Shown in pieces: positions 578 to 24,785 of a stretch of DNA of 46,846 nucleotides; the stretch's first letter is position 1; every line of letters begins with the position of its first letter. The notes below the pieces were generated by a model that did no database searches, was not told the origin of the DNA, and worked only from the letters and a program-made list of their open reading frames with translations. The DNA lies in the NCBI GenBank assembly GCA_027066325.1, contig JAMONY010000016.1, forward strand, positions 1 through 46,846, in the 5' to 3' direction. Position numbers and translations under genes: made by a program. The stretch comes from Helicobacteraceae bacterium (GTDB taxonomy: Bacteria > Campylobacterota > Campylobacteria > Campylobacterales > Sulfurimonadaceae).

Positions 578-2284
578 TTAACTATACCCTTTTGCCATCT
601 TTTGAAACTCACCACACCCATCTAGTAGCTCTTTAAAGCTACCAGAACTTACGATCTCACCCGCTCTAAAGAGATATAGACATTTGGACTCTTCGATACT
701 GCTTAATCTGTGTGCTATTGTGATGGTAATCATGTCGGATGTGTAGTTTTTGAGTGCTCTATTGATACGCTCTTCGCTCTCATTGTCAAGCGCACTTGTG
801 GCTTCATCTAGTATGAGCAAAGAGGCATTTTTGTAGATGGCTCTAGCTATGGCTATGCGTTGGCGCTGTCCGCCTGAAAGGTTTGTGCCAGCCTCATCCA
901 TTGTTGTATATATACCATCACTAAGCGACTTGGCAAACTCATAGGCATCTGCTAGTTTTAACGCTTCAATAACACGCTCTTCGTCTATCTCTTCTGCATA
1001 TGCAACATTTTGAGCTAGTGTATCTTGTAGGATGTATATGCGTTGAGACACCATGGCGATCTGCGAGCGCAAAGAGGAGGTGGAGTATGTTCTGATATCT
1101 TTACCGTTGATCTTGACTACGCCACTATCAGCATCATAAAATCTAAGTATCAGGTTGACAAGTGAACTCTTGCCACCACCGCTATCGCCTATGAGAGCTA
1201 CGGTTGTTGGGCTCTGTATGTTTAGGTTGATATCTTTGAGCACTGTTGAGTCTTGATATAGAAGAGATACGCTCTCAAAACTTATCTCCCTTATGGGATC
1301 TTTAAGTTCAATCTCACCCTCTGTAATAGTACTTTTTTTGTCCATAAGTTCAAAAACTCTCTGGCTAGCAGCTAAAGCATCTTGTATCTTGCCATATATA
1401 GACCCTATGCGCCTAATAGGTTGAAAAAGCAACCCAACAGCAGTTAAAAATGCGCTAAATTCGCCAACGCTCATCTTCTCATCATAGACTAGTTGTCCAC
1501 CTATAAAGATGACACCAGCAAGACCGATAGCGCCAACGATCTCAAGTAGCGGAGAGACAAGCTCATTGGTATATACAGACTTCATGTTGATGCGAAAAAA
1601 TCGCCAGTTTTCAGCGCTAAATCGCTCTAGCTCATACTCTTGTGTTGAGTTTGCTTTTATAATCTCTGAGTTGTTAAAAACCTCACTTAGTCTATTGATC
1701 ATGTCTGCATTTTTCTCTTGAGATCGGTGTGAGAGACGGCGCAATCTTTTAGCTATAAGTATGAGAGGATATATAATGACAGGTAGGACAACAAGTGCAT
1801 AGAAAGCTAGTGTTGCATTGAGGTAGATAACATATGCCAAGAGTGCAACAACGGTTAGACTCTCACGCAGCAGTTCAGGAAGCATAAATGAGACAAAGTA
1901 CTGTATGCGACTTATATCATTTGTGATGCGACTAATCAGCTCTCCACTTCTATTGGTATATAAAAACTCCATATCAAGATGTAGTATCTTGCTAAGTAGA
2001 TCTTCACGCAGTCGTGTTATGACATGTCCGCCTATGTAGTTCATGTAGATAGCAGCTATGTAGCGACCTATAGATTTAAGTAGGTAGATCCCTATAAGCA
2101 TGAGCGGGATGATGTAGAGCATCTGCTCATCTTTAGCTATAAACATGTCATCCATTAGAGGCTGCATGATTTGAGCCGTAGCTGCAGTGGCTGTAACTGT
2201 AAGGAGTATGCCTATGAGTATGTAAAAGTAGTGAAGCTTATGCTCTTTGAGGTACGGTAGGTAGCGTTTAAAAGTTTTTTTCAT
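578..2284 (-). CDS. msbA: MsbA-type ABC exporter (fused permease and ATPase)
   Basis: This 568-residue half-transporter has an N-terminal six-helix membrane domain (about residues 15-300) and a C-terminal ATPase domain. Walker A is GDSGGGKSS near residue 365, the signature LSGGQRQRIAIARA is near 468, and Walker B with the catalytic Glu (LLILDEATSALD) is near 490, followed by the H-loop IAHRLSS. The intracellular-loop pattern LYTNRSGELISRITND is typical of the MsbA/lipid-exporter subfamily. It probably works as a homodimer flipping lipid A-core or a related lipid across the inner membrane, although multidrug exporters look alike, so the substrate is inferred. The gene stands alone. Its ATG has no Shine-Dalgarno and lies only a few bases from a TATAAT box. 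Confidence 0.85.
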   Translation of the reverse strand: MKKTFKRYLPYLKEHKLHYFYILIGILLTVTATAATAQIMQPLMDDMFIAKDEQMLYIIPLMLIGIYLLKSIGRYIAAIYMNYIGGHVITRLREDLLSKILHLDMEFLYTNRSGELISRITNDISRIQYFVSFMLPELLRESLTVVALLAYVIYLNATLAFYALVVLPVIIYPLILIAKRLRRLSHRSQEKNADMINRLSEVFNNSEIIKANSTQEYELERFSAENWRFFRINMKSVYTNELVSPLLEIVGAIGLAGVIFIGGQLVYDEKMSVGEFSAFLTAVGLLFQPIRRIGSIYGKIQDALAASQRVFELMDKKSTITEGEIELKDPIREISFESVSLLYQDSTVLKDINLNIQSPTTVALIGDSGGGKSSLVNLILRFYDADSGVVKINGKDIRTYSTSSLRSQIAMVSQRIYILQDTLAQNVAYAEEIDEERVIEALKLADAYEFAKSLSDGIYTTMDEAGTNLSGGQRQRIAIARAIYKNASLLILDEATSALDNESEERINRALKNYTSDMITITIAHRLSSIEESKCLYLFRAGEIVSSGSFKELLDGCGEFQKMAKGYS

Positions 2285-17202: not shown

Positions 17203-18735
17203 ATGTTTGAGTATATTTTATCGATTTTAATCTTCTTTCCAGCACTTGCTGCTATCTTGGGTCTTGCACTCAATAAAGATAGCATCAAAGCTTACGGTAT
17301 TGTTGTTAGTGCAATTGAGTTTTTGCTAGCCCTAATGTTATGGTATGCATATGATGCTGGTGTAACTGGTATGCAGTTTGTTGAGAGTGTGGCTATAGTT
17401 GAGGCCTTTGGTGTGCACTACTTGGTTGGAGTTGATGGTATATCACTCTTTATCATTATATTGGCAGCATTTTTTACACTTATTGGTATAGCATCTCTTC
17501 CTGAGATGAAAAATATCAAAAATCTTATCATAACACTGCTGTTTATGCAGATGACTATGGTTGGTGTGTTTGCTGCTCTTGATGTGATACTGTTTTATAT
17601 CTTTTGGGAGCTATCTTTAGTTCCTATGCTCTATATCATAGGTGCTTGGGGTGGTCCACGCCGTGTCTATGCATCGGTTAAGTTTTTCTTGTATACATTT
17701 GCAGGGTCTATGTTCTTGCTTGTTGGTATACTCTACATGGGCTATGCCTACCACGATGCTACTGGTATCTGGAGCTTTTCACTACTTGATTGGTATGAGA
17801 GTGCAACACTGCCGTTTAATGTCCAGTTGTGGTTATTTGGAGCCTTTTTCTTAGGTTTTGCGGTTAAGGTGCCTATGTTTCCATTTCACACATGGCTGCC
17901 TTATGCACACGGTGAAGCGCCAACTATAGGTTCTGTTATACTTGCAGCAATCTTGCTAAAGATGGGAACATATGCATTTGTAAGATTTTCGCTACCGCTT
18001 TTCCCAGATGCTTCATACTATTTTATGGTACCTATTGCGATCATATCGATTATCATGATTGTCTACACAGCTATGGTTGCGTATGCACAAAAAGATGTTA
18101 AACAGGTTGTTGCATATAGCTCTATATCTCACATGGGTGTGATCATTCTTGGTACATTTGCGCTCAATGTAGAAGGGATTAGTGGAGCAGTCTTTTTGAT
18201 GATAGCTCATGGTGTGGTATCTGGAGCACTATTTTTACTTGTTGGTGTAATCTATGAGAGAAGACACACTAAGCTTATGAGTGAATTTGGCGGCTTGGCA
18301 ACTGTGATGCCGTACTATGCTACCATATTTGGTGTATTTATGTTAGCATCCGTTGGCATGCCACTTACTATCAATTTTGTTGGTGAGTTTTTGTGTCTAT
18401 TGGGCTTTTACGAGCAGTCACATACTTTAACTCTACTTGCTGGACTTGCAATCATTGTTGGTGCCATCTATATGTTGGCGGCATTTAAAAAGCTCTTTTT
18501 TGGTGAGGTCACCAATGAGAAAAATAGAAATCTTCCAGATGTGACAAAAACAGAGCTAGTAGCACTACTACCTTTAGTGGTTATCACAATCTGGCTTGGA
18601 GTCTACCCAAAACCTGTATTAGGGCCTATAGATAACTCAGTTAAACCACTTGTGCAGATGATGCATGATAGAGCAATCACTCCAGAGGCACAAGCAGCTA
18701 TTGCATCACCTCTAGTACCAAAGGAGGCACGATAA
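17203..18735 (+). CDS. nuoM: Complex I subunit M (antiporter-like proton pump)
   Basis: The 510-residue polytopic proton pump is homologous to nuoL and nuoN. Visible motifs are VDGISLFIIILAAF near residue 80, FYIFWELSLVPMLYIIGAWGG near 130 with the conserved Glu, and FHTWLPYAHGEAPTIGSVILAAILLKMGTY near 229. The end of the gene overlaps nuoN by one base (TAATG), and AAGGAG stands upstream of the ATG. Confidence 0.96.
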   Translation: MFEYILSILIFFPALAAILGLALNKDSIKAYGIVVSAIEFLLALMLWYAYDAGVTGMQFVESVAIVEAFGVHYLVGVDGISLFIIILAAFFTLIGIASLPEMKNIKNLIITLLFMQMTMVGVFAALDVILFYIFWELSLVPMLYIIGAWGGPRRVYASVKFFLYTFAGSMFLLVGILYMGYAYHDATGIWSFSLLDWYESATLPFNVQLWLFGAFFLGFAVKVPMFPFHTWLPYAHGEAPTIGSVILAAILLKMGTYAFVRFSLPLFPDASYYFMVPIAIISIIMIVYTAMVAYAQKDVKQVVAYSSISHMGVIILGTFALNVEGISGAVFLMIAHGVVSGALFLLVGVIYERRHTKLMSEFGGLATVMPYYATIFGVFMLASVGMPLTINFVGEFLCLLGFYEQSHTLTLLAGLAIIVGAIYMLAAFKKLFFGEVTNEKNRNLPDVTKTELVALLPLVVITIWLGVYPKPVLGPIDNSVKPLVQMMHDRAITPEAQAAIASPLVPKEAR

Positions 18736-20243
18736 TGTTAGAGCCTATTGTAGTAACTCTTGAAGAGTTAAACCTTATCACACTTGTTCCGATGTGTATC
18801 GCCATATTTGGAGCGCTACTTATCATCTGTATAGATCTTGTTAAAGAGAGGCTAGATAAGAGTTTTTATCTTATGATAACACTACTCTTTTTAGCAGTTG
18901 ACTTTGTTGCTGTTTTAGCAAGTGCGGGACTATTTGAGCAGGTAGGATCAGTTAGAGGCTTTTTTGATGTTATGTTTATAGATGGTTTAGCTATATTGGG
19001 TCAGCTCATTATAGTTGGTGCTTCCATGTTGTTTATACCTCTAGCGCTTACATCAAAACGGTTCCATGAGTACAACTATCCTGAGTATTTTGGTATGTTT
19101 TTATTTATGGTTGGTGGCTTCCAGTTTATGGTTGCTACAGATAATCTTATATTGATATTTGTAGGTCTTGAGACTGCCTCACTTGCTCTATATACCCTTA
19201 TAGCACTTCACAATAGAGACAAATCTTTTGAAGCTGCTATTAAGTACTTTACGATGGGAGCACTTGGTGCTGCTCTCTTCTCATTTGGTGCTATGCTTCT
19301 TTATGCTGTTAGTGGCTCCATTGAGATAGCACACATAGCGGCAGTTGTGAAAGCAGATGAGTATGCCAATATAGAGATACTCTTAGTAGGTGTAGTAATG
19401 CTTCTAGCAGCTCTTGGGCTTAAAGTTTCACTTGTCCCTTTTCACACTTGGTTACCAGATGTGTATGAGGGTTCAAGTGCAGCACTAGCGGGTTATATGT
19501 CTATAGTTCCAAAGATAGCTGCTTTTGTAGTTGCTATGAGACTTTTTGAGTTCTTGATACATAGTGGTGTTGTATGGCTAGAGGTGATACTATATGCGGT
19601 TGTTGTGCTTACCATGACAGCTGCTAACCTCTGGGCACTTGTACAGAGTGATGTGAAGCGGATGTTGGCTTACAGCTCTATATCACACGCTGGTTTTGTT
19701 ATGGCGGCTATTCTTATAGCTACTACTCAAGCCAATAGTGCACTGTTTATCTACTGGATACTATTTAGCTTTACCAACCTTGGTGCTTTTACTATGTTGT
19801 GGGTGAGTCGTCAAAAAGATCTACTACCAGGTCAAAGCTCAGATCACCCATACGATAAGTTCTCAGGCATGATACGAACCATGCCGGTAGCTGCTGTTGT
19901 GATGGGGCTGTTTATGCTCTCACTTGCTGGTATGCCACCGTTTGCAATGTTCTGGGGTAAACTATATATGATCAGTGCTGCTGTAAATGCAGAGTATGTG
20001 ATCTTAGCACTCATTATGGCTATCAACTCTGCCATAGCGGCGTACTATTATCTTAAACTGATAGTTTATATGTTTATGAAAGAGCCTCACTATGAGGGTA
20101 TGCAGCAGTACTATATGACAAACTCATCAGGTGCGCTCAAAACCATTATAGGTTTTGCAGCATTTGCTACAGTCTTTATATTTTTAGCTCTCAACCCTAT
20201 CATGGAGTTTGTAACAGCGCTGGTTCAAAAATCAGGCTTTTAG
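18735..20243 (+). CDS. nuoN: Complex I subunit N (antiporter-like proton pump)
   Basis: The last gene of the nuo operon encodes 502 residues with about 14 helices. Motifs include FVGLETASLALYTLIALH near residue 140 with the conserved Glu, FHTWLPDVYEGSSAALAGYMSIVPKIAAF near 235, and AYSSISHAGFVMAA near 312. A decayed copy of its 3' region (about 20031-20160) lies some 340 bases downstream. A hairpin follows the stop codon. Confidence 0.95.
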   Translation: MLEPIVVTLEELNLITLVPMCIAIFGALLIICIDLVKERLDKSFYLMITLLFLAVDFVAVLASAGLFEQVGSVRGFFDVMFIDGLAILGQLIIVGASMLFIPLALTSKRFHEYNYPEYFGMFLFMVGGFQFMVATDNLILIFVGLETASLALYTLIALHNRDKSFEAAIKYFTMGALGAALFSFGAMLLYAVSGSIEIAHIAAVVKADEYANIEILLVGVVMLLAALGLKVSLVPFHTWLPDVYEGSSAALAGYMSIVPKIAAFVVAMRLFEFLIHSGVVWLEVILYAVVVLTMTAANLWALVQSDVKRMLAYSSISHAGFVMAAILIATTQANSALFIYWILFSFTNLGAFTMLWVSRQKDLLPGQSSDHPYDKFSGMIRTMPVAAVVMGLFMLSLAGMPPFAMFWGKLYMISAAVNAEYVILALIMAINSAIAAYYYLKLIVYMFMKEPHYEGMQQYYMTNSSGALKTIIGFAAFATVFIFLALNPIMEFVTALVQKSGF

Positions 20244-20253
20244 AGGATTTTGC

Positions 20254-20282
20254 CTTGACTAGTATCATAACAGCTAGTCAAG
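20254..20282 (+). terminator. Hairpin after nuoN, possible terminator
   Basis: CTTGACTAG (20254-20262) and CTAGTCAAG (20274-20282) form a perfect nine-base-pair stem with an 11-base loop, eleven bases after the nuoN stop. There is no immediate T run; the nearest is TTTTTT about 30 bases on. It may end transcription or protect the 3' end of the operon mRNA. Confidence 0.5.
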
Positions 20283-20580
20283 ATATCCCGTCTATGTGCT
20301 CTTTATAGCTTTTTTCCAATCTCTTCAAGATCTTTACAAAAATACAACCCAGTTAATATAGCACTCTTATTAAAAAAGATAAAATCAGAGATAAAATGAG
20401 AGGAAGAGATGAGTAGAAAAAGAGAGATATACAGTGTAGCAGTTTTATATAGATAAAGTTTAAATAAGATGCAACACCTAACATCTTGTTTATTTGTATG
20501 TTGAGTTAAAAAATCGACATCAAAATAAGGAGTACAATAGATGATATTTAGAAGCTTTATAGTAATGGTTGTGGCGGTGT
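20283..20580. other. Gene-free gap between nuoN and the nuoN relic
   Basis: About 300 AT-rich bases with no convincing gene. A 21-codon frame starts at the ATG at 20541 behind AAGGAG (20527-20532) and encodes a hydrophobic peptide, but it runs into the nuoN relic and is more likely fortuitous or part of the decayed copy. A minus-strand frame stays open for roughly 85 codons (down to about 20316) without a start codon, ending in a gene-like KDLEEIGKKL tail. Confidence 0.4.
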
Positions 20581-20703
20581 TTTATAGTAGCATACTATTA
20601 TCTTAAACTGATAGTCTATATGTTCATGAAAGAGCCTTGCTGTAAGGGGTACGCAACAGCACCACACAATAAGCTTCATCTGGCACACTCAAGACTATTG
20701 TAG
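20581..20703 (+). pseudogene. Decayed duplicate of the nuoN 3' region
   Basis: Bases 20581-20703 align co-linearly with nuoN 20031-20152, including an unbroken identical stretch TACTATTATCTTAAACTGAT. Extending the alignment to 130 columns I count about 76 percent identity with two one-base insertions that break the frame. It lacks a start and the rest of the gene, so it is a fragment and not a functional second copy. By hand count nearly all substitutions are transitions. It sits just before the convergent thiamine-binding-family gene. Confidence 0.8.
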
Positions 20704-20729
20704 TTTTTAGAGTGCATATTTAAGATTAT

Positions 20730-21044
20730 CTAACGATTAACCGCTCTTTGTAGTCTCTTCTCAATTGAGTCTACTTTACCCTCTAGACGGTTAGCACTAT
20801 TTTTTCTGATATCAAACTTGAGAGAGGAGTAGACTCTATTTGAGTATGGCTCTAGTACTTTGTAGGCATTTTTAACAATCTCTAGCGCCTCATCTATAGT
20901 ATCGGTCTCAATAACAGTACCCATACATGTTAATTTATATGGTACTCCACTACGATCTATCATATCTATGATTTTACTCACATGTTCACTTTTGCTCTCC
21001 GTAGTATCGGTTGCAAACATACTAAATTCCAATAAAACTGACAT
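20730..21044 (-). CDS. Thiamine-binding family protein (MTH1187/YkoF type)
   Basis: The 104-residue cytoplasmic protein matches the small MTH1187-like family: an N-terminal strand SVLLEFSMFATD, then GVPYKLTCMGTVIETDTIDEALEIVKNA, and the C-terminal RLEGKVDSIEKRL. Members form ferredoxin-like tetramers and some bind thiamine or related pyrimidines. Their physiological role is not well established. It starts at an ATG behind GGAG and lies eight bases after the DUF1501 gene, probably in the same transcript. It has no transport partner here. Confidence 0.8.
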   Translation of the reverse strand: MSVLLEFSMFATDTTESKSEHVSKIIDMIDRSGVPYKLTCMGTVIETDTIDEALEIVKNAYKVLEPYSNRVYSSLKFDIRKNSANRLEGKVDSIEKRLQRAVNR

Positions 21045-21052
21045 GTATTCTC

Positions 21053-22399
21053 CTATTTTAATAGACCATTTTTGATAACATCAAATCCACCAGTCAGATA
21101 GATTGGATTGGTAATGCCATATATGCTATATAGAGTTGCAGCGATAGATGCTGGCTCAAATGTGTAAGATGTGGATGTAGGCTTTAAAAATAGTCGGTTA
21201 AGCCCTCCTGTTGATTCAAGTCTAGTCTCTCCAACTATGCCTACATGGTTGAAGTAGCGTTTGCCACCAAATGTATAGAAGTTTTGAGTGTTACCATGAT
21301 CCCAACCATTGGAGCTGTTTAGATTAACATTTCTACCAAAATCACCCCAGACAACTATGTTTATGTTATCTTTTTTTTCTGCTTTCATGTGTTTTAGTGC
21401 AGTCTCAATGGCACCAATAAGAGCCTCTTTGCGTGCTGGATAATCTTCTGCTTCGTTGTGGTCATCCCAGCTACCTAGCCCGCCACTTCCAATCGATATC
21501 ATCTTAGTGTCGGGGTTATTGACCAAGATCTTTACAGCAGATTCCATCTTCTGTGCAAAATCATTATTGTCATACTCAATCTGGTCTGGAAGTGTAGTCT
21601 TATCTATCGCATCGATAAACTCTTCAAGCTCAACTCTTCTCTCAAAATTAGCTCTTATATCACCATCAATGTTGAGAGATTGTGCTAGAGAGTCCATCTC
21701 TATATCCATTTCTGCTCTAGTAGCGTTATACCCTTTTGTGTCACGCTCTTGATCATTATAGTAGTACCATCGATTAGTATAGCGTCTTTTGTATGGATTG
21801 CTAAGATCTGCTGCTAGGGCAGTTGGGCGTAAAAAGCTCTCTAGTGTAAAGTCGGGTGTTGCATAAAGTATGGACTCACCCTCCATAGATATAAATGGTA
21901 GTTTTGCATCACTACTAATAGCACCTTTCTCATAGAGTGTCTGTGCTATAGTTGATATGATGCCACCACTATCATCACTACTCATTACACCACGCTGATT
22001 TTGTGATACACAACTACCGTGAGATTTGTTGTTGTTGGCATCTCTTATCTTTGAGTAGCAGGTTCTAAAGATATTTGCCTCTTTTGCGCTAAGTAGTCTC
22101 TCTAGTGCATCTCCACCTGCCTCTGCCCATAGCTTATTGCTAGTGATACGCATTCTATTTTCAAAATACTCATAGCTATTTTGTGAGAGCGGTGCTATCT
22201 GCTCTATGTTGGTTAGGTTTGCTCCAAGCTCTGAAGCTCCACCATATAGAAAAACTATGATAGTCTGCGCGCTATTGTTATTGTAGGTATCTGCATCAAA
22301 CTCTATGTCTCTAAAATTTGTCTTAGCTTTTAGAGAGATAGGAGAGATTAAAGAGCCACTTGTTAGGGCTGCTGCTTTTAAAAAAGATCTTCGTCTCAT
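21053..22399 (-). CDS. Tat-exported DUF1501 family protein
   Basis: This 448-residue protein starts with RRRSFLKAA, a twin-arginine signal, followed by a hydrophobic stretch, so it is probably exported folded to the periplasm. The body fits the DUF1501 (sulfatase-like fold) family: FLYGGASELGANL near residue 50, SIGSGGLGSWDDHNEA and VVWGDFGRNVNLNSSNGWDHGNTQ further on, the last resembling a metal-binding region. The ATG at 22399 is chosen because GGAGGT lies six bases upstream. An in-frame GTG at 22402 fits less well. It overlaps the stop of the DUF1800-like gene by one base, and the two families are commonly paired. Function is unknown. Confidence 0.8.
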   Translation of the reverse strand: MRRRSFLKAAALTSGSLISPISLKAKTNFRDIEFDADTYNNNSAQTIIVFLYGGASELGANLTNIEQIAPLSQNSYEYFENRMRITSNKLWAEAGGDALERLLSAKEANIFRTCYSKIRDANNNKSHGSCVSQNQRGVMSSDDSGGIISTIAQTLYEKGAISSDAKLPFISMEGESILYATPDFTLESFLRPTALAADLSNPYKRRYTNRWYYYNDQERDTKGYNATRAEMDIEMDSLAQSLNIDGDIRANFERRVELEEFIDAIDKTTLPDQIEYDNNDFAQKMESAVKILVNNPDTKMISIGSGGLGSWDDHNEAEDYPARKEALIGAIETALKHMKAEKKDNINIVVWGDFGRNVNLNSSNGWDHGNTQNFYTFGGKRYFNHVGIVGETRLESTGGLNRLFLKPTSTSYTFEPASIAATLYSIYGITNPIYLTGGFDVIKNGLLK

Positions 22400-24012
22400 C
22401 ACTTCACCTCCACAAATCTATAAGTCTGAGTAAGTCTAGAGATATAGTCTAATACAACCTTTGAGGCACGGATGCGATCATCTAAGGGGTCATCTGAGTT
22501 GTTAAATATCTCAAATGCAGATCTATATTTGTTATCACTAGTTAACATGTGAGATCTAAATAGTCTATACTCCTGCTCTAGTGGCTTACGCGATACTGTA
22601 TGGGCAAATAGGTGCTCTACTAGTCTATCTAGCATCTTAGAGTGCTCATAAGCAGATATGTTATCAAATAGGTTGTCAGATATAAAATCCTCTGCTACCC
22701 ATCCAGAACTCCAGCGGTTTTTGTCGCTAATTAGTAGCTCTTCTCTTATGAACTTATGGTAAGTTATAAATGATTGAGTATCAAGTGGTACCTCTGTGTA
22801 GCGACCTAATTTGTATTTCATAGATGCTTGATGCATGGCTACTAGTGCTCTTGAGAAGCGACTAAAAAATCCTCTTTTATGTTTGAAGTGCATCTTTTTA
22901 GCCAGTGAAAAAAAGAGCTCTTCTACACTTTTTGGTTTATCTGAGTCTAGTAGATATGCCTCTGAAAATACAATCTGAAGCAGTATATCTTGCCAGCTAG
23001 ATGGATTGCTAGCTACTAGATCAGTGACTATAGCTCTTTTGTTAGACTCTGTGAATGTTGGAAAATATACCTCTACCAATCTTCTACTAACACCTGAGAT
23101 AAAATCATCATCTTTGACAAGTTCTCTATAAAAGTCAAATCCATCAGTAACAGTTGTACCAAATATCTCTAGCTCATCGCTGTTGTCGTTTACGCCTATA
23201 ACAAGTGTGTCATGGTCACGATCAAGACTCCAGTTTTGAAGTGCTTTTGCAGCTAGTGGTACAAGCTTATCATCAAAATTAAGTAAAAAGATCTCCATCA
23301 TCTCTCTGCCATTATCTTCAGGGCTTCTAAAGCGTCTCCAGTTGTCATCACTAAACATATGCAGATAAGTTAAGTACTGTAAACTAAGTTCATTGCGTTG
23401 TGATCTTACTAAAAAACTGTAGACTCTTTCGATATTTGGCGCATGTGAAGAGGCGAGCTCTTGTGCTGGTGAGAACATGATATTTTGCGCAAGCACATAA
23501 GAGCTCCAGTGCTCAAGATAACTTCTATCTAGCTTATCCATCATATAAAATCGTGCCAGTATCTTAGCTGTTTGTGCAGTTCCATTTGGCCAAGATGAGA
23601 AGTAAAATGTTGAGTTTTCATCACCATTATCATCTAGCTGATGCTCTATGTTAGCCATGTCGTTACTGTAGACTTTTAGCTTGGATGTTATGGTGCTTAT
23701 GAAGTTGTTAGAGTCTATGAGGGGTTGTAGTTTGGCTTGAGACATACCAAAAAATAGTGTCGATAGCAGTTTGTCAGCAACTATCTGTTTAGTCTGCGCA
23801 TCTAATGAGTTGAACTCTTCATCACTCAAAGAGTCTAGTCTATAAGAGCTTGAGTCCATATTTTTGGCATAAAACTTTATGCCATCATCTAGGAGCCCAT
23901 ATCTGTCGTCTGTCTGTTCGGTGCTACTATCGCTACTGCTATCTGAGCCAAGACATCCAGATAGTAGCAGAAGTATCAGTAGAGCTAGAGCTATATGTGT
24001 AGGCTTTTTCAT
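22399..24012 (-). CDS. DUF1800-like lipoprotein
   Basis: The 537-residue protein begins with a lipoprotein signal whose lipobox LSGC places the modified Cys at residue 20, followed by a Ser/Asp-rich linker. A central segment, EDNGREMMEIFLLNFDDKLVPLAAKALQNW, resembles the hallmark of DUF1800 proteins (NxARELLELFTLG...LTGW). FFGMSQAKL and SYLEHWSSYVLAQNIMF also fit, though the whole is diverged. Such proteins usually accompany a DUF1501 partner, exactly as here. Likely location is the periplasmic face of a membrane. The pair might handle a cell-surface or exported substrate, but no reaction is established. GGAGG precedes the ATG. Confidence 0.7.
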   Translation of the reverse strand: MKKPTHIALALLILLLLSGCLGSDSSSDSSTEQTDDRYGLLDDGIKFYAKNMDSSSYRLDSLSDEEFNSLDAQTKQIVADKLLSTLFFGMSQAKLQPLIDSNNFISTITSKLKVYSNDMANIEHQLDDNGDENSTFYFSSWPNGTAQTAKILARFYMMDKLDRSYLEHWSSYVLAQNIMFSPAQELASSHAPNIERVYSFLVRSQRNELSLQYLTYLHMFSDDNWRRFRSPEDNGREMMEIFLLNFDDKLVPLAAKALQNWSLDRDHDTLVIGVNDNSDELEIFGTTVTDGFDFYRELVKDDDFISGVSRRLVEVYFPTFTESNKRAIVTDLVASNPSSWQDILLQIVFSEAYLLDSDKPKSVEELFFSLAKKMHFKHKRGFFSRFSRALVAMHQASMKYKLGRYTEVPLDTQSFITYHKFIREELLISDKNRWSSGWVAEDFISDNLFDNISAYEHSKMLDRLVEHLFAHTVSRKPLEQEYRLFRSHMLTSDNKYRSAFEIFNNSDDPLDDRIRASKVVLDYISRLTQTYRFVEVK

Positions 24013-24101: not shown

Positions 24102-24785
24102 TTATGTGTAGTGTAGCGGTCTGTTATCTGTTACTATCTGCTCATCTGAAAATATCTCTCTATATAGTATGCCGTATGTTATCATCACAAGTGGCACTGT
24201 CCATATAAGTGCTATACCAAGTGTAAAGATACTAGCAATAATGGCAAGAGTAGAGAGTAGGTAGACAAAAAATACCTTAAACCAGTGTCTAGTTACGCTT
24301 TTGCGTGATAGCTCTAAAGAGTCCCAGATGCCAAGATTTTTCTCTATAGATAGAGGTATGGCAAAGGCGTATGCAATGCTAAGATATATACCAGGGAGTA
24401 CAAGTAGAAATAGACCAAGATATATCAAGATAAGCATGACTATATTTAGGATAACTAAAGGCCACACTTTGACAAAATAGTCAAAAACCATTGTTGTCTC
24501 TATGGGTTTATCTTGAGCGCGCTTGATACCTAGAAAGATGAGCCCAGTTACAAGAGGAATGGTTATGGGCATAGCCAGTATAGATATCGTAACAGAGGTT
24601 GTCATGTCCAATACTGAAGGCTCAGTAGATGAGGAGGTAAAACCCTCAGTGATAACCTGTATTACTATTAGTGCCATAGCGTAGATAAAAAATGCACCAA
24701 AGATAACCATCTTTGAGCCATCAACTCTTGCCCATGCCTCAGAAAAAAGATCACCTATTTCAATATCCCACTCTTTTGTCTGCAT
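24102..24785 (-). CDS. Integral membrane protein, unknown function
   Basis: A 227-residue protein with a short cytoplasmic N-terminus and about six hydrophobic helices. The stretch LLVLPGIYLSIAYAFAIPL followed by NLGIWDSLELSRKSV is the kind of pattern found in several uncharacterised bacterial membrane families (DUF975-like or the membrane domain of glycerophosphodiester phosphodiesterases). The exact family is uncertain. AGGAGA lies eight bases before the ATG and a TATAAT box further upstream, so it is probably transcribed on its own. No functional link to its neighbours is visible. Confidence 0.7.
   Translation of the reverse strand: MQTKEWDIEIGDLFSEAWARVDGSKMVIFGAFFIYAMALIVIQVITEGFTSSSTEPSVLDMTTSVTISILAMPITIPLVTGLIFLGIKRAQDKPIETTMVFDYFVKVWPLVILNIVMLILIYLGLFLLVLPGIYLSIAYAFAIPLSIEKNLGIWDSLELSRKSVTRHWFKVFFVYLLSTLAIIASIFTLGIALIWTVPLVMITYGILYREIFSDEQIVTDNRPLHYT

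Follow-up and report, generated by a model that had tools for sequence, protein, structure and literature searches.

Does the gap downstream of nuoN, the gene that closes the nuo operon in a Helicobacteraceae bacterium, carry a second piece of that gene, and if so, where did it come from and does it still have a role? The preliminary description of the window (the whole stretch of DNA analyzed, 46,846 nt) had placed a co-linear, approximately 76% identical copy of part of nuoN at 20581–20710, some 340 bases after the gene, and had attributed it either to a duplication of the end of the operon or to a second nuo cluster or rearranged operon that once ended here, with subsequent decay by frameshift. 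Local alignment of nuoN 20034–20156 against 20584–20708 gives a co-linear match of 97 identical positions in 125 with two 1-base gaps, in the same orientation, at an offset of 550 bases and after a spacer of 340 bases (20244–20583); both the position and the distance had therefore been read correctly to within a few bases. The match is significant within the window (BLASTN E 3e-21) and against the whole 1.69-Mb draft assembly (E 6.7e-20), and 500 mononucleotide shuffles of the gap never exceeded a Smith–Waterman score of 42, against 132 for the real pair; this is the homology to a parent gene that marks a pseudogene fragment. The similarity reaches well past the 23-base exact core, so that the self-alignment set beforehand as the refuting check came out in favor of the copy. 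The only counterparts of the gap in the assembly were the gap itself and the duplicated part of nuoN, the next best match having an E value of 0.06. The features discussed here are listed in table 1.

Table 1. Coordinates of the relic, its parent gene and the other features discussed; positions refer to the window unless another stretch is named.
Feature	Position	Strand	Description
nuoN	18735..20243	+	Parent sequence; intact, 502 aa, closes the nuo operon; Pfam Proton_antipo_M E 4e-60
Duplicated nuoN segment	20034..20156	+	Codons 434–474, IAAYYYLKLIVYMFMKEP...; from alignment to the relic
Hairpin	20253..20282	+	10-bp stem, CTTGACTAGT...GCTAGTCAAG; possible 3' end of the operon; fold z -3.1; without T run
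nuoN-derived relic	20584..20708	+	77.6% identical to nuoN; two frame-shifting 1-nt insertions
Relic core	20593..20637	+	Only two changes in 45 nt, each a synonymous T>C; clustering P 0.006 (post hoc)
Thiamine-binding-protein gene, convergent	20730..21044	-	Pfam PF01910 (Thiamine_BP) E 5e-20
Cut-down MutS7-like protein	L048:1492-3237 (contig C39)	-	581 aa; Pfam MutS domains III and V only

The intact nuoN shows approximately 67–76% identity to orthologues within its family, and a scan found no terminator-like site at the hairpin that follows it. As nuoN and the thiamine-binding-protein gene, whose stop lies approximately 20 nt beyond the relic, are convergent, the relic sits where neither neighbor needs a promoter. 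Members of the family mostly carry a conserved gene of approximately 790 aa, with a signal-peptide-like start and TPR-like, directly after nuoN (e.g., L043:908-3271, L035, L017, L024); a search of eight genomes of this genus, including that of the window, did not find it. The stretch 20527–20583 shares a ribosome-binding-site-like ATAAGGAGTA with the start of this TPR-type gene, but was rejected as such a start, its similarity being little or no better than that of control stretches from the same gap. A 21-codon frame, MIFRSFIVMVVAVFYSSILLS, at 20541–20606 on the forward strand has a good AAGGAG ribosome-binding-like site and reads into the relic in a different frame; a search for relatives of it found none. 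Beyond the thiamine-binding-protein gene, two reverse-strand genes near a DUF1501 gene (21053–22402) encode proteins of 537 aa (22399–24012) and 227 aa (24102–24785) without a Pfam match.

The pattern of differences is that of a sequence under relaxed constraint. The 26 substitutions between relic and nuoN fall 12 at third, six at first and eight at second codon positions, a ratio near the 2:1:1 predicted for a freely drifting relic beside an nuoN that tolerates silent changes alone. At five sites that are nearly invariant among orthologues (20038, 20112, 20122, 20148, and 20152), nuoN has the common base and the relic another. Two +1 insertions, each lengthening a short run of the same base (G near 20646, T near 20675), disrupt the frame of the 125 nt, as the proposed decay by frameshift had implied. 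On neither strand did the relic fold better than shuffled sequences (z 0.0 and -0.7), and no Rfam family reached threshold. Although derived from codons 434–474 of NuoN (NADH-quinone oxidoreductase subunit N, Proton_antipo_M family), the relic has neither start nor intact frame, covers approximately 8% of the gene and is not a NuoN. To judge from its sequence, it is a dead, non-functional nuoN fragment. It resembles truncated intergenic pseudogenes of bacteria in being a partial, frameshifted copy of a neighboring gene, diverging at all codon positions and specific to its lineage, and differs from them in its nearly pure transition spectrum and in the presence of a less diverged 45-nt core.

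The resident nuoN is also the closest match. Aligned in the nuoN register, the relic shows 79% identity to the resident gene, against 67% to the best of 36 orthologues, and the resident nuoN itself, over the duplicated segment, reaches no more than approximately 72% to the orthologues listed. Comparison of the same gap in related genomes, which the preliminary description had proposed, showed the relic to be lineage-specific: none of the 35 relatives whose sequence extends 500 or more bases past nuoN has a copy of its own nuoN there. In a search of the relatives' loci, all matches to the relic fell in nuoN except two marginal ones at E ~1. Its closest match being its own nuoN, with no similar copy in relatives, indicates that the relic likely arose in this lineage from the adjacent gene, and a horizontal origin was rejected on the same nearest match. 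The data support a lineage-specific, local partial duplication of the adjacent nuoN 3' part that would later have decayed. What remains of the original proposal is a local duplication of the 3' end of nuoN (closest to its own nuoN, co-linear, offset by 550 bases, frameshifted and lineage-specific), whereas the suggestion of a second nuo cluster, or of a rearranged operon that once ended here, is not supported, given a single nuoN, a relic nearest to the resident gene and no other nuo fragment adjoining it. The search for a second nuo operon with a nuoN closer to the relic likewise found only one nuoN in the genome; the other two full-length matches are the preceding nuoL and nuoM, and beyond these only the relic was found.

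These findings bear on a related reading, in which the relic is the leftover of another nuoN or nuo operon, diverged or acquired horizontally and otherwise deleted from this place, and its core a trace of earlier purifying selection on a working NuoN. The core does match the conserved NuoN motif YYYLKLIVYMFMKEP, and both of its changes are synonymous; yet the genome has no second nuoN, the relic is nearest to the resident gene (79% vs. 67%), and outside the core BLASTN still pairs it with the resident nuoN but with hardly any orthologue. We consider this origin very unlikely. An artefact in which a nuoN fragment of another strain was joined into the gap during assembly is hardly credible: the genome is a draft of 82 contigs, but the relic lies inside a 46.8-kb contig, 20 bp from the stop of an intact gene, and frameshifts and changes at near-invariant sites are unexpected in the working nuoN of another strain.

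It should be noted that the differences are unevenly spread along the relic, with only two in the 45-nt core that coincides with the conserved motif (P 0.006, for a window length picked post hoc, after the data had been seen). This counts against a pure neutral clock, which does not predict such a spread. The likeliest sources of the low divergence are gene conversion by nuoN or chance, and brief past constraint could also have produced it. A more far-reaching explanation is that the relic was retained as a functional element, be it a membrane peptide of approximately 43–45 aa (TTG at 20569), the 21-aa frame (ATG at 20541) or an RNA pairing with nuoN mRNA. The core has diverged less than expected, an open frame of 45 codons takes it in, and a good Shine–Dalgarno-like AAGGAG lies near 20528. 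However, the element is absent from all relatives compared, its frame is broken relative to NuoN, and it shows neither unusual folding nor an Rfam family; scans for promoters and terminators gave totals near chance, with a sole antisense promoter-like match of 9/12. For an antisense RNA, G-U pairing with nuoN mRNA would survive 15 of the 24 transitions (T>C, G>A) but not the other nine. We regard a retained function as extremely unlikely, and selective maintenance of the core as a nuoN-derived small peptide or RNA element that regulates its own operon as scarcely plausible.

Besides the core, an unexpected feature of the relic is its substitution spectrum. Transitions account for 24 of the 26 substitutions and for 13 of the 14 at first and second codon positions, so the excess is not a by-product of selection at silent sites. 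Fourfold sites of nuoN compared between two close congeners show 23 transitions and 17 transversions (Fisher P 0.002 against the relic). Between the resident nuoN and its relatives, fourfold sites are near saturation, so the lineage's own spectrum cannot be polarized from them. Coding duplicates, taken from a 365-kb sample of stretches rather than the whole genome and themselves under selection, show approximately 69% transitions (P 0.005–0.015 against the relic). In the same sample, a gene was paired with noncoding sequence in only two cases, the nuoN relic and an 86-nt overlap at a contig end (100% identical); L068 holds two more noncoding pairs, both tRNA-sized.

Loss of mismatch repair generally gives an excess of transitions and slips in runs, as in mutS and mutL mutants. 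No MutL over the cut-off was found in the window's genome or in seven congeners, and no MutS_I domain was found in the window's genome, while all seven congeners have one. The MutS7-like protein of table 1 keeps a Walker A-like GINSSGKSS. It aligns only to residues 149–438 and 595–886 of the 1024-aa protein of a congener, with 33–51% identity to the congener's MutS7 over domains III and V. The defining domains of MutS7 are I, III, V and HNH (PMC3166940). The full-length congener has all four; the shortened protein is like the MutS7 of epsilonproteobacteria in domains III and V, and differs from it in lacking MutS_I, the segment matching residues 438–595 and the C-terminal HNH, which help define MutS7. 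Epsilonproteobacteria are generally without several mismatch-repair genes, and Arcobacter butzleri has neither MutL nor MutH (PMC2147049). Mismatch recognition has possibly been lost in the small 1.69-Mb genome, as far as gene content can indicate. That the nearly pure transition spectrum reflects decay under weak or absent mismatch repair is suggestive only, because the comparison with congeners is confounded by base composition and selection.

Taken together, we regard the relic as, with high probability, an inactive partial copy of the adjacent nuoN 3' part that arose locally in this lineage and then drifted. The sequence comparisons directly support its homology and parentage, the loss of the frame and of near-invariant residues, and its restriction to this genome among those compared, whereas we infer the mechanism of duplication and the later trimming. 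A local duplication, by illegitimate recombination or replication slippage, would have placed a copy of at least 125 bp from the 3' part of nuoN between that gene and the convergent thiamine-binding-protein gene, an event confined to this lineage. Having no role, the copy would have drifted, with point changes at all codon positions, and two +1 slips in homopolymer runs would have broken its frame; flanking duplicated sequence was probably lost afterwards. Less surely than the other steps, the almost exclusive drift by transitions would perhaps stem from weak or absent mismatch repair.

Elsewhere in the genome, two tandem putative lipoprotein genes (L054:133-615 and 618-974, forward strand) were noted, the second copy of which is without the lipobox cysteine (GCGS to GYGS) and has a diverged 3' part; this pair is perhaps another local duplication in decay.

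The relic is a real but ordinary pseudogene fragment in a marine bacterium. In itself it matters little, since decaying partial duplications between convergent genes are to be expected. It is useful only as a small neutral record of mutation, and as such it suggests a strongly transition-biased spectrum (24/26) in a lineage seemingly without mismatch recognition.
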